A stretch of 64,000 bases of DNA from Dehalogenimonas sp. WBC-2 (GTDB taxonomy: Bacteria; Chloroflexota; Dehalococcoidia; Dehalococcoidales; Dehalococcoidaceae): positions 930,001-994,000 of the forward strand of contig CP011392.1 in NCBI GenBank assembly GCA_001005265.1, in the 5' to 3' direction. Position numbers and translations under genes: made by a program. Under the pieces are notes generated by a model. That model searched no databases, was not told the origin of the DNA, and saw nothing but the letters and a program-made list of their open reading frames with translations. This document shows, in pieces, positions 15,190 through 61,870 of this stretch; the first letter of the stretch is position 1; each line of letters starts with the position of its first letter.

Positions 15190-15247
15190 CTACTCATTGA
15201 ACCGTGCTGAACGCATCCCTCTCTTACCCAAAAATAAACCCTCAAAT

Positions 15248-15636
15248 AGTTCCAAAACCCATTGACAATCCCACGCTGATGCTATATCATCTGTTCTCTG
15301 TATATCTGGTAGTTAAGAAGAGTATATGAATTATTTGTTTCTTCAGAAAACAACCGGTTGTTTTCATCGGTTTTAATCGTAAAAAGGGAGGTTGTTTTGG
15401 TTGTTTTTGCTTTTTTGAGAAAAACAATTCACACTCCTCAGCCACAGCCGCCTGCGTGCCAAAAGTCGCACCTTGAAAACTGAAGAATTGAAACCTGCAA
15501 ATAGCTGAATTGTTGCTTTGAATCAAAACTCCAGGTCTCAAAAAACGGGTATTTGTGTCAAAACAATTCTCTATTCTTTCTGTTGCCCTCGGATATTTGA
15601 AATTTTTTTACTTTTTTCGCTTGTGACTTTGGAACT
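15248..15636 (+). ncRNA. Noncoding element A: transcribed structured RNA or MITE-like element
   Basis: This 389-bp stretch is homologous along its whole length to 61278-61664 on the other strand. It begins AGTTCCAAA and ends TTTGGAACT, a perfect 9-bp terminal inverted repeat. Blocks of perfect identity with element B include 34 bp (15498-15531) and 23 bp (15547-15569), which contain GAATTGTT and AACAATTC and can pair. A palindrome AACAACCGGTTGTT lies near 15349-15362, followed by more GGTTGTT copies. A sigma70-type promoter sits at 15262-15290. Frames inside it are not conserved between the copies. No target-site duplication is evident. Whether it is a non-autonomous mobile element or an RNA gene cannot be decided here. 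Confidence 0.7.
15262..15290 (+). promoter_or_regulatory. Conserved promoter inside element A
   Basis: TTGACA, 17-base spacer, TATCAT. Element B has TTGACA, 17 bases, TAACAT at the same place although the spacer sequence itself has diverged, which points to selection on the promoter. Confidence 0.7.
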
Positions 15637-15674
15637 CAGTGTTCAAACCATCTATCATAGACACAGACAGGTAA

Positions 15675-15704
15675 TTGACACTGCTGCGCGTTGGTACTTA
15701 GAAT
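15675..15704 (+). promoter_or_regulatory. Promoter of the ferritin-like gene
   Basis: TTGACA (15675-15680), 18-base spacer, TAGAAT (15699-15704), about 31 bases before the ATG at 15736. The tRNA-Gly gene after element B has the same boxes and spacing. Confidence 0.65.
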
Positions 15705-15735
15705 AACAAAGTGATGAGTGATCTGAAGAGGTTTG

Positions 15736-16191
15736 ATGAACGCTGAAATTACCGAGGTGTTGGATACAGCGATGCTCAAAGAGGTGGCCTCTGCCGCTCT
15801 CTACCATCAGGCCGCAAAAAAGACCGACGACCCGGCAGCTGCCGCCCTGCTGAAAGAACTGGCCGCCTCTGAGGAAAAACATCTCAGCGTTTTGAAAAAT
15901 CTACCCAAAGATATAGTTCTAGTTCCTACGTTAAAAATAGAAACCGTGACTGACCTTAAACTTTCAGATTACCTGAAAGGACCGGATGAACTTAACGGCG
16001 CTGATCTTACTGATACCCTGCTCTTTGCCATCAAGCGTGAGGCTGAATCCGCGGCTTTTTACGTCAATCTGATGGATATTTTCAGCGACCGGCAAGCCAA
16101 AGATTTTTGCCGGATTCTGGCAGACCAGGAACAGGATCACAAGAGACGGCTTGAATCGTTATACAGCCGGATTGCATATCTGGAAAATTAG
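15736..16191 (+). CDS. Ferritin-like diiron protein (rubrerythrin-type four-helix bundle)
   Basis: About 151 residues from the ATG at 15736 with AGAGG upstream (an in-frame TTG precedes it directly). The helices carry the ferritin-like ligand pattern: EVASAALYHQAAKK, then ELAASEEKHLSVL, and in the second half AIKREAESAAFYVNLMD and ADQEQDHKRRLESLY. The two ExxH-type motifs match a carboxylate-bridged diiron site. No rubredoxin domain is present. Such proteins are linked to peroxide reduction or iron handling in anaerobes. The next gene follows after 18 bases and is probably cotranscribed. Confidence 0.82.
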   Translation: MNAEITEVLDTAMLKEVASAALYHQAAKKTDDPAAAALLKELAASEEKHLSVLKNLPKDIVLVPTLKIETVTDLKLSDYLKGPDELNGADLTDTLLFAIKREAESAAFYVNLMDIFSDRQAKDFCRILADQEQDHKRRLESLYSRIAYLEN

Positions 16192-16961: not shown

Positions 16962-19900
16962 TTAAGCTTTTTTCACGCCTAGATTAACAATGTGACCTTC
17001 GAGTTTATAGCTTTCAGAGGTCACGGTTCCGTCATCGGGAAACCCCTTCACTAAGTTTGTGGATAGTGTTTCCCGTTGTATGTAGTCCTGCCAGATGGAT
17101 ATTACTCGTTCCGCGTGCTCATCTGCTTCAAAGTAGGTGATGATGCTGTCAGCAATCTCGAAATTAGCGTTCCGGCGTAGTCCTTGAAGCCGGTGAGTGA
17201 TTTCCCGGACCAGTCCTTCGTCGGCAAGTTCTTGTGTCAAGGTTTTATCAATAGCCACTGAAAGAGTGCCCTCCGTAACAGTGGCGCTATTTTCAGGCAA
17301 ATCCGCTACATTTGAGACGAAACTCAGACGTTTAACGTTCAGTTCATCGATTACTGAATCAGCCAGTTTTTCCAGTCCAGCCTGTTCTGATGGTGCTACA
17401 CCTACGATAAAGGCTTCCGCCAACGGTTGGCGGACTTTGATACCTGCCTGCGCCCGAGCGGCCCTACCGATACTCGATACTTTCATCGCCAGTCGCATAG
17501 CAGATGATAGTTCGTTATCAATTAAAGACTCATCGGCTACGGGATAGTCGGTCAGATGAACGCTGTCCGGTGCTTGAGGATCGACCGAACAAATCATATT
17601 GCGGTAAATTTCTTCCGCCAGGAAAGGAAGGAAAGGAGCTAGTAGTTTCGATACCTTAACAAGGCATTCGTAAAGGGCGCTGTATGCCGACAGTTTATCC
17701 GCATCGCTTTCGGATTTCCAGAAGCGCCTGCGTGATCGTCTGACATACCAATTTGAGAGGTAGTCAACAAATATTTCGATAGCCCGCGCCGCTGCCACCG
17801 GATCGTAAGAATCAAGATCGGATGTCACTTCTTTAATGAGTTGGTTTAGTTCAGATAGTATCCAACGATCAAGTTCGGACACCGTGGGGTATTTTTCCAT
17901 TGATGGTTGATATTTGTCGATGTTGGCATAGAGTATGAAAAATGAATAGACATTCCATAAGGTGGACATGAAGGAGCGCGTCACTTCGCTCACCAGCTTC
18001 TCCGAGAACCTCCGTGCATTACCGGCCGGTGAAGCGGTGAATAAATACCACCTGACCGCATCAGCTCCATATTTACCGATGACGGTCTCTGGTAACACCA
18101 CATTACCCTTGGACTTACTCATCTTCTCGCCTTTTTCATCGAGGATGTGCCCTAGGCAGATTACGTTCTCGTAACTCGGACGGTTGAAAAGGAGCGTAGA
18201 TAACGCATGCAGGCTGTAAAACCAGCCGCGGGTCTGGTCCACTGCCTCACAGATATAGTCCGCTGGAAAGCGGCCGTCGGTAAAGATATTCAAGCTATCA
18301 GGATCGAATGGATAGTGATATTGAGCCACCGGCATGGCACCCGAGTCAAACCAGCAATCAATAACGTCGGTAACACGTTTCATCTCACCGTGACATTGGG
18401 TGCATTCATATGTTATGTCATCCACATACGGTCGATGAAGGTCAAGCGGATCCTTGAAGCCTGAAAATCCTGGCTTACCCTGGAGTTCTGCCAACCCTCC
18501 GATACAATCGGTAGACTGGCAAGTCTGACATCTCCATACTGGAATAGGTGTCCCCCAGTACCTTTCTCGGGAAAACGCCCAATCGACATTATTCTGTAGC
18601 CAGTCACCAAACCGCCCGTGTTTGATATGTTCGGGATACCAGTTGATACTCTCATTACCGCTTATGAGCGCCTCCCGGCAGGCGGTCGTCCTGATATACC
18701 AACTCTGCTTTGCAAAATACAGCAGCGGAGTTCCGCAACGCCAACAGAACGGATAAGTGTGATGGATGGTTTCGCTTTTGAACAACAGGCCCCTATGTTT
18801 CAACTCCTGTGTTATCAACGGGTCAGCCGTTTTTACAAACTTTCCCGCCCCAGGGTAGGTGCCGGTGATTTTGCCCTGCAAGTCGACATGATGAATGAAA
18901 TATAACCCGTATTTTTTGCCAGATTCATAATCGACTTCACCATAAGCCGGAGCCGTATGTACTATCCCTGTACCGTCATCCATGGAGACGTAATCAGTAG
19001 CGATCACGTGATAATCCAATGATGTCGTCGCCGGAACGACCACGAGTTCACCATTTTCAAGACGGGCAACGCTCATTTCATATTCGAAAGGATTAAACAG
19101 GGGCAGGTATTTCAGACCTACCAGATCACTTCCTTTCACCCTGCCCACTTCATGGGCTGCTTGCAGACCATTTGCTTCAAGTCTGGCCGCTGCCAGGACT
19201 AAATATTCTTCGCCCATGTCTAGTACAGCATATTCAGCCGAGTCACATATAGCCAGTGCGGTATTTGCCGGCAGGGTCCACGGTGTAGTGGTCCAGGCAA
19301 GCAATGAAAATGGTTTGTTCTTAAAAGCACTTAGCGTTCCCTGGAGCGAATTGGGCGATATCCTGAATTTAATGTAAACAGACGGATCTTCAGTATGTTC
19401 CTCATAGCCTAGTGCGACCTCATGAGATGATAAAGAGGTTCCGCAACGGGGGCAATGGGGGGTGACCTTATGACCTTGGTAGATCAGACCTTTGTCCCAC
19501 AGCTGTTTAACCACCCACCAACCGCTTTCGATGTAGCTATTATTCATGGTGACATAGGCATTATCCAGATCAACCCAGTAGCCGATGCGTTCAGTTAGAG
19601 CATTCCAGTCTTGAACATATTTAAATACGGATTCCCGGCATTTTTGATTGAATTCAGCAATACCGTATCGTTCTATATCTGTTTTGCTTTTAAAACCGAG
19701 GGCTTTCTCTACTTCGAGTTCGACCGGAAGACCATGTGTATCCCAACCGCCGATACGCGGAGCATAAAAACCTTTCATGACTTTATAACGTGGTATGACA
19801 TCTTTGAAAACACGTGAAAGTACGTGGTGAATGCCAGGCTTGCCGTTGGCCGTCGGAGGTCCTTCGTACATGGTAAAACGTCTGTTGTTTTTACGGTTTT

Positions 19901-19997
19901 CGACGCTTCGTTTGAAAACATCCTTTTCCGCCCATAGTGCCAGCGTCTTTTCTTCCAATTCTCCAAAGTTGACCCTACTACTGACTGGTTGAAACAT
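16962..19997 (-). CDS. ileS: Isoleucyl-tRNA synthetase, long (type 2-like) form
   Basis: 1011 residues. The class I signature is ANGKPGIHHVLSR (HIGH motif as GIHH) and the second is EKMSKSKGN. Other marks: GWDTHGLPVELEVEKALG, the editing-domain segments LLAWTTTPWTLPANTAL and GTGIVHTAPAYGEVDYE, and CWFDSGAMPVAQ. The GxPGIHH form and the long C-terminal domain (MRLAMKVSSIGRAARAQAGIKVRQPL) fit the type 2 (eukaryote-like) IleRS group; known members of that group often resist mupirocin, which is family knowledge and not shown here. Expression is controlled by the T-box leader directly upstream. Confidence 0.97.
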   Translation of the reverse strand: MFQPVSSRVNFGELEEKTLALWAEKDVFKRSVENRKNNRRFTMYEGPPTANGKPGIHHVLSRVFKDVIPRYKVMKGFYAPRIGGWDTHGLPVELEVEKALGFKSKTDIERYGIAEFNQKCRESVFKYVQDWNALTERIGYWVDLDNAYVTMNNSYIESGWWVVKQLWDKGLIYQGHKVTPHCPRCGTSLSSHEVALGYEEHTEDPSVYIKFRISPNSLQGTLSAFKNKPFSLLAWTTTPWTLPANTALAICDSAEYAVLDMGEEYLVLAAARLEANGLQAAHEVGRVKGSDLVGLKYLPLFNPFEYEMSVARLENGELVVVPATTSLDYHVIATDYVSMDDGTGIVHTAPAYGEVDYESGKKYGLYFIHHVDLQGKITGTYPGAGKFVKTADPLITQELKHRGLLFKSETIHHTYPFCWRCGTPLLYFAKQSWYIRTTACREALISGNESINWYPEHIKHGRFGDWLQNNVDWAFSRERYWGTPIPVWRCQTCQSTDCIGGLAELQGKPGFSGFKDPLDLHRPYVDDITYECTQCHGEMKRVTDVIDCWFDSGAMPVAQYHYPFDPDSLNIFTDGRFPADYICEAVDQTRGWFYSLHALSTLLFNRPSYENVICLGHILDEKGEKMSKSKGNVVLPETVIGKYGADAVRWYLFTASPAGNARRFSEKLVSEVTRSFMSTLWNVYSFFILYANIDKYQPSMEKYPTVSELDRWILSELNQLIKEVTSDLDSYDPVAAARAIEIFVDYLSNWYVRRSRRRFWKSESDADKLSAYSALYECLVKVSKLLAPFLPFLAEEIYRNMICSVDPQAPDSVHLTDYPVADESLIDNELSSAMRLAMKVSSIGRAARAQAGIKVRQPLAEAFIVGVAPSEQAGLEKLADSVIDELNVKRLSFVSNVADLPENSATVTEGTLSVAIDKTLTQELADEGLVREITHRLQGLRRNANFEIADSIITYFEADEHAERVISIWQDYIQRETLSTNLVKGFPDDGTVTSESYKLEGHIVNLGVKKA

Positions 19998-20011: not shown

Positions 20012-20280
20012 AAAATAATAAATCCCGTCCCTATAAGGGACGGGATGAACCCGCGGTACCACCCTATTTCCTCTGGTATCTTATCCAGAGGCACTTTTAC
20101 GGGCACAAATATGCCCTGCCGCGATAACGGTCGGCATCCGTCACGGATTAATCCCTTCTTATGAAGGTTTCATCCAGAAGCTCGGGAGTGATTTTCAAAG
20201 GAATTTTCCCACCCGCTCTCACTATACCGGGTTCGCTGTGGGTCTGTACCCTCTACTCTTCTCCGTCGTTGCTGTTAACG
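20012..20280 (-). promoter_or_regulatory. T-box riboswitch (isoleucine) upstream of ileS
   Basis: On the minus strand the leader contains the canonical T-box AGGGTGGTACCGCGG (20051-20065). Next comes an intrinsic terminator with arms CCCGTCCC/GGGACGGG (20024-20044) and a T/A-rich tail reaching 20012. The stem I region holds AGAGTAGAGGG (S-turn-like) and GAAAATCACTCC, in which ATC (20190-20192), an Ile codon, is the likely specifier. Uncharged tRNA-Ile should pair with the T-box bulge and prevent termination, switching ileS on. A weak promoter-like TTGCTC with TATTCT 18 bases on lies near 20285-20315. Confidence 0.93.
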
Positions 20281-58422: not shown

Positions 58423-61203
<2,781 letters not shown>

Positions 61204-61243: not shown

Positions 61244-61277
61244 AGTCATGTAAGCGTCCATATCATACTGAATTGTG

Positions 61278-61664
61278 AGTTCCAAATCACAAGAAAATAA
61301 ATTGTAAAAAATTTCAATTCCCAAAAGGCAAACGGAAAGTGGCGAATTGTTTTGACACAAATACCCATTTTCTTTGACCCAGAGTTTTGATTCAAAGCAA
61401 CAATTCAGCTATTTGAGGATTTCAATTATTCAGTTTTAAAGGTGCGATTTTTGCATTCGAGGTATTCTGGTTGAGTAGCCGGGGGTTGTTTCCCCTGAAA
61501 ATGAAAAATACTGAAACAACCTCCTTTTTATGATTGAAAACGGCGCAAATAACCGGTTGTTTGCCTAAAACAACCTCTAATTCAAATACTCTTTTTAATT
61601 ACCTAGTGAATAGAGAACAGATGTTAACATAGAGTAGTTGGTGTGTCAATGGGGTTTTGGAACT
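61278..61664 (-). ncRNA. Noncoding element B: transcribed structured RNA or MITE-like element
   Basis: Read on the minus strand this 387-bp stretch mirrors element A (15248-15636): AGTTCCAAA at the left end, TTTGGAACT at the right end, a conserved promoter, CATCTGTTCTCT, a GGTTGTTTT...AAACAACCGGTT cluster, then the 34-bp (61382-61415) and 23-bp (61344-61366) blocks identical to A. Compared with A it has an extra GGTTGTT at the front and an AACAACC in the variable middle, so the paired motifs are kept while the sequence between changes. It lies 74 bases upstream of tRNA-Gly. Confidence 0.7.
61621..61649 (-). promoter_or_regulatory. Conserved promoter inside element B
   Basis: TTGACA (61644-61649), 17-base spacer, TAACAT (61621-61626), in the same place as in element A. 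Confidence 0.65.
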
Positions 61665-61870
61665 TTTTGAGGTTAATTTTAGAAATACGGCCGATGGACG
61701 AGGTGATAAATACTCTTCAATATGAACCGATGCAAACTTAGCAACACACCCCTATCTCTGGTTTTATCGGGATAAACGGTAGGACTGAACTAGCAAAGTG
61801 CAATAGAGCCATATTGCTTATGTTATGATATATTACTGGGATCAAGATTCAATAAAGAATTGGTTTTTTA
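61665..61870. other. Intergenic DNA between element B and degV
   Basis: No gene found. The stretch should hold the degV promoter; TATGATATATTA near 61833 is a possible -10 region. Confidence 0.35.

Follow-up and report, generated by a model that had tools for sequence, protein, structure and literature searches.

Two copies of an intergenic repeat, here called element B, lie in the window, which is the whole 64-kb stretch of DNA analysed (G000:930001-994000; G+C content of 48.0%). Copy 1 is on the plus strand and has a rubrerythrin-like gene downstream (15733-16191), and copy 2 is on the minus strand and reads towards a tRNA-Gly gene (61129-61203, minus). The two copies can be aligned over around 450 nt, and their parts are the following:

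15232-15690, plus: element B copy 1, with modules P, G, variable M, core C and tail T
15232-15261, plus: box 5' of the -35 hexamer in copy 1, species-specific and also present in the promoters of terS, terS-like and portal-capsid genes at other places of the genome
15262-15267, plus: -35 hexamer TTGACA of copy 1
15285-15290, plus: -10 hexamer TATCAT of copy 1, after a 17-nt spacer
15293-15298, plus: GTTCTC of copy 1, nearly invariant, in the region where the transcript is predicted to start
15349-15362, plus: AACAACCGGTTGTT palindrome in module G of copy 1
15390-15431, plus: inverted-repeat region GGTTGTTTT ... AAAAACAATTC in module G of copy 1
15507-15569, plus: 63-nt core C of copy 1, GAATTGTT...AACAATTC
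61265-61680, minus: element B copy 2
61644-61649, minus: -35 hexamer TTGACA of copy 2
61621-61626, minus: -10 hexamer TAACAT of copy 2, after a 17-nt spacer
61613-61618, minus: GTTCTC of copy 2, which together with the -10 hexamer makes TAACATCTGTTC
61549-61562, minus: AAACAACCGGTTAT palindrome region in module G of copy 2
61344-61406, minus: 63-nt core C of copy 2

The original prediction held that both copies keep a promoter, palindromes and a stem, and much of this anatomy was found as described. The TTGACA box and a -10 box 17 nt apart were read directly in both copies and checked by script, AACAACCGGTT is present in both (15349-15362, plus; about 61549-61562, minus), and so are the GGTTGTT/AACAACC motifs, in different number and place. 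The GAATTGTT...AACAATTC pair is also kept in the two copies, but instead of the long-range stem that had been proposed it makes a local hairpin with a 47-nt loop, bounding the strongly conserved 63-nt core. Judging from its letters, the GTTCTC motif may possibly be half of a LexA-like operator. Elsewhere in the window, a T-box leader (20033-20278, minus) was located upstream of an ORF of 1011 aa (16962-19997, minus), a size that is usual for an aminoacyl-tRNA synthetase.

A genome-wide repeat family

The two window copies are real, but the family is not limited to the pair originally described, as it comprises about 50 intergenic loci in the 1,725,728-bp genome (G000), where 44 long matches to P, 39 matches to G and 36 to full-length C were detected. 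The order of the modules in these copies is always P-G-C on a single strand, in such a way that a full copy begins with P (an upstream box, TTGACA, 17-18 nt, TA[AT]CAT and GTTCTC), continues with AACAACC/GGTTGTT inverted repeats and a variable middle, and finishes with the 63-nt core. The variable middle is often swapped for other intergenic repeats; in several copies (L050, L062 and L063) its place is taken by a GTCATTGCGAGGAGCGAAGCGACGTGGCAATCTC-type repeat. No regular spacing of the copies was found along the chromosome, the gaps between them being near random. Protein coding was discarded because no conserved frame runs through the copies, as judged by eye, and mechanically called ORFs vary in strand and frame; integron attC sites were discarded as well, because the ends of the core do not match the attC core-site pattern (by eye). 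One gene, which its sequence identifies as queH-like (L058, G000:1374161-1375029), is flanked by a module P and by a core C that begins 3 nt past its stop codon, and the two modules may therefore delimit transcription units, P at the start and C at the end.

Constraint was measured on 43 copies anchored on the promoter. The hexamers hold 1.80 bits per column compared with 1.16 overall and 0.5-0.7 in the spacer, a value that was not equalled in any of 100,000 permutations, and the -35/-10 spacing is of 17-18 nt in 41 of the 43 copies. When each copy was compared with its nearest relative, the divergence was 3.5% in the hexamers, 26% in the spacer and 20% both upstream and downstream, in agreement with the earlier claim that the hexamers were held while the spacer drifted. 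This low hexamer divergence supports that constraint acts on the copies individually, or has done so in the very recent past.

Inverted repeats with arms of at least 8 nt are also enriched, with 3.6 per copy versus 0.6 in shuffles. Local folding is somewhat above that of shuffled sequences on both strands (mean z of -1.4 forward and -2.2 reverse for G, and of -2.1 forward and -1.2 reverse for C), so both DNA sites and RNA hairpins are possible. The pairs of the GAATTGTT/AACAATTC stem are almost invariant among copies, and because they almost never vary the stem has no support from covariation. Selection on the promoter and the inverted repeats, as had been proposed, is thus supported by the comparison of around 45 copies, as well as by the related families of other species; by contrast, a single RNA with a stable global fold was abandoned, since the folds of the two window copies disagree and are no better than those of shuffles (whole-transcript z of 0.59 and -0.34).

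The promoter constraint, the enriched inverted repeats and the conserved core would all be expected of a multi-copy family of regulatory RNAs, in which every copy would encode a small RNA from its own promoter, with local hairpins and a 3' core, and would be linked to the phage-type genes described below only by a shared regulator. Nevertheless, such a family seems doubtful to us: there is no stable common fold, no Rfam family matched element B, no intrinsic terminator is evident directly 3' of C, and the inverted repeats of module G are at least as strong when the opposite strand is read, a behaviour to be expected of DNA sites.

The genes neighbouring the B copies include tRNA genes and, named from their sequence, leuS, valS, alaS and uvrB. 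Where the surrounding genes are in tandem, 25 copies have the same direction as the genes and 5 the opposite one, and at 44 of 55 loci the gene downstream runs in the direction of the element, according to mechanical gene calls. The bias in tandem contexts, together with the orthology of some sites (see below), would fit upstream operator-promoter modules that bring neighbouring housekeeping genes (uvrB and those for tRNAs and aminoacyl-tRNA synthetases, among others) into a damage-type response. We consider this unlikely, because several downstream genes appear by eye to have a promoter of their own after the element, the gene set has no evident common theme, and co-orientation can also be explained by selection against antisense promoters.

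Terminase and capsid genes behind module P

Module P is located directly 5' of two terS genes (188727 and 353011 in G000) and of two terS-like genes (1125327 and 1669817), and a P box at 303616 opens an operon encoding portal, capsid (306012-306929) and head-tail adaptor-like proteins. The small protein encoded after P carries the motif GAPxGNxNARxHGFYS and matches terminase small subunits, and the adjacent gene matches terminase large subunits, with ATPase and nuclease motifs that are invariant among the three examples compared. Family matches were obtained to Pfam Terminase_6C and to the terminase, portal and major head families of PHROG, and neither TerL nor TerS had a convincing match among the defence systems of PADLOC. 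The two terS-like genes (L407 and L408) are near-identical and have no adjacent terL, which suggests a recent duplication.

Core C is shared with these genes too. At 353047-351178 of G000, terS and terL are placed exactly between P and C, and a P-terS-terL-C' unit was found in the genome G006 (C19:5326-3354). Against a derivation of element B from the terminase operon, the copy of terS-terL at 188-190 kb in G000 lacks C, C adjoins terL in two genomes only, and most B copies are far from terminase genes. In G006, a second, decaying copy of terL with an in-frame TGA was observed beside a double P (C2:114547-115872).

The terL gene was detected in 64 of 101 relatives, nearly always in single copy, and the capsid gene in 54 of them, mostly in single copy and including seven of the eight Dehalogenimonas. 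In Dehalococcoides as well as in a distant family, terS-terL has the same coiled-coil/zinc-ribbon gene as its neighbour, which, together with the single-copy state of terL, indicates that terL is inherited vertically. As the phage-type genes are mostly single-copy across the order and appear to sit among host genes, they look domesticated, in the manner of a gene transfer agent. Some of the genes around the G000 portal-capsid operon were scanned; they include a glycosyltransferase and a tRNA synthetase gene, and none of them was seen to be an integrase. The three Dehalococcoides (L186, L187 and L188) retain terS-terL with a LexA-like promoter; the search for a capsid gene gave no match in them, so terS-terL may serve a separate function. 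In contigs from IMG/VR, relatives of this terminase are followed by portal and capsid genes. Many contigs filed there as viral (L311-L390) carry the same terminase, with a terminase-portal-capsid cluster in two of those examined, and some of them may be host gene-transfer-agent-like clusters of Dehalococcoidia and not viruses.

Related families in other Dehalogenimonas genomes

The element B family was found by blastn in no other genome, but a profile model (R2) of P and G revealed diverged families in G001, G002 and G006. There are 29 P sites in G006 and 12 in G001; G002 has the box at terS and at an element, with only one clear extra element and hence little dispersal, which speaks against the general pattern. 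The terS box and the element box agree in G001 as they do in G002, and in both genomes the hairpin-arm motif of the element, TTCGTTTCATTCG, is also present between terS and terL. For G003, G004, G005 and G007 we predicted that the box 5' of terS, CACCAAAAACGACA-N5-CGCTTGAC, should be dispersed, and 25, 38, 37 and 23 sites were found, respectively, versus none for the reversed control pattern. The terS box also precedes the capsid operon in G001, G003, G005, G006 and G007, at around 2.4-2.6 kb 5' of the capsid gene in G003, G005 and G007.

Each species has its own version of the box and element. Even the inverted repeats differ in their letters while keeping the pairing, with GGTTGTTTC in G000, GGATTGTTT in G006 and ATTCGTTT in G004, G005 and G007. 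At 7 of approximately 18 non-terminase sites the same host gene lies downstream in G000 and G006, for which a binomial estimate with assumed gene numbers gave a p of about 5e-7. Outside the hexamers, these orthologous copies are 0.37-0.53 alike, compared with an average of 0.60-0.69 among the G000 copies, supporting that positions persist between species while the sequence is homogenised within each of them.

These comparisons bear on whether the family could have spread as a MITE-like element, with the terS-terL unit bounded by P and C as the autonomous form, the terminase nuclease acting like a transposase, and the B copies as non-autonomous forms moved in trans. As with MITEs, the B copies are short and non-coding and have the same ends as a longer related unit that bears genes, and this unit occurs in two species; the copy number of about 50, the terS-like copies with truncated genes in G006 and the few sites common to G000 and G001 point the same way. 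Unlike MITEs, however, element B has no terminal inverted repeats, its left end (AAATAAACCC...) and right end (...AAAACAATTC) not being inverted repeats of each other in alignments, and its partner genes are terminase-like and not transposases. Moreover, terL is mostly single-copy beside the same host gene in distant families, the promoter hexamers are constrained in each copy, and many sites are common to different species. We keep this account as a real possibility, although we lean against it.

With respect to regulation, a GAAC-N4-GTGC motif, or a close variant of it, abuts the -10 box of terS across families, and the P model also matches the promoters of lexA in G001 and G002. On these motif likenesses, control of P by LexA in response to damage is likely. 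At terS and in P, the -10 box is adjoined or overlapped by GAAC-N4-GTGC or AAC-N4-GTT, an arrangement that resembles that of SOS (LexA) regulon promoters, whereas many B copies have a half site only.

Origin of the elements and comparison with known systems

Taken together, element B is probably a non-coding, promoter-bearing dispersed repeat that derives from, or was built on, regulatory parts of a domesticated terS-terL operon, and that belongs to the same regulon as this operon and the single-copy portal-capsid operon. Module P would be the promoter of the regulon, with a box read by a species-specific regulator, a -35 box and a -10 box overlapped by a LexA-like half operator; transcription from it would yield a short RNA, with hairpins of the GTTTC/GAAAC type, that extends as far as core C, the putative 3' boundary common to one terS-terL copy. 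We infer that P is active and induced by DNA damage, and that the B copies arose from the terS-terL operon by duplication with gene loss; their hairpins, as RNA or DNA, would be used by the terminase or its regulator. In the simplest account that the sequences offer, B elements would be non-coding derivatives of the terminase operon, or parasites on it, that have retained the promoter and the right boundary of the operon and share its regulation. They appear to be more than debris, because of the promoter constraint, the shared sites and the homogenisation within species. That every promoter is constrained and that there are orthologous positions suggests that each copy has some use and is not just a dead derivative. 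The direction could also be the reverse, with the phage genes having captured P from a host regulon.

A further reading, which we hold to be quite improbable, takes the B elements as dispersed sites of the domesticated terminase, where a damage-type promoter would co-activate capsid, terminase and around 50 hairpin loci, and these loci would be the starts of packaging or processing by an undescribed gene transfer agent of Chloroflexota. As in agents of the RcGTA type, the terminase, portal and capsid genes are mostly inherited as single copies and appear, from the genes scanned, to lie among host genes with no evident prophage; unlike in them, the terminase and head operons of G000 are split. 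Promoter-sharing dispersed repeats are not known as a feature of gene transfer agents.

No description of terminase-linked repeats, of a Dehalococcoidia gene transfer agent or of a related regulon was found in open-licence papers, and the main text of a 2026 comparative genomics paper on Dehalogenimonas mentions no prophage, terminase or gene transfer agent (PMC13390414). The present data tie an apparently anonymous repeat to inherited phage-type genes through a common promoter across the Dehalogenimonas genomes examined, a link that points to an undescribed regulon or mobile repeat around tamed virus genes. This bears on the question of whether gene transfer particles are produced by these organohalide-respiring bacteria, in which case dehalogenase genes might be spread by them. 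The family also shows clearly that dispersed elements of bacteria can stay at some of their sites from one species to the next even though, inside a species, their sequences become homogenised.

Among known repeats, the Correia elements of Neisseria, which carry promoters, and the BOX elements of pneumococcus are, like element B, short modular intergenic repeats. Element B differs from both in sharing its promoter with terminase and capsid genes, and in having species-own versions at partly orthologous sites.
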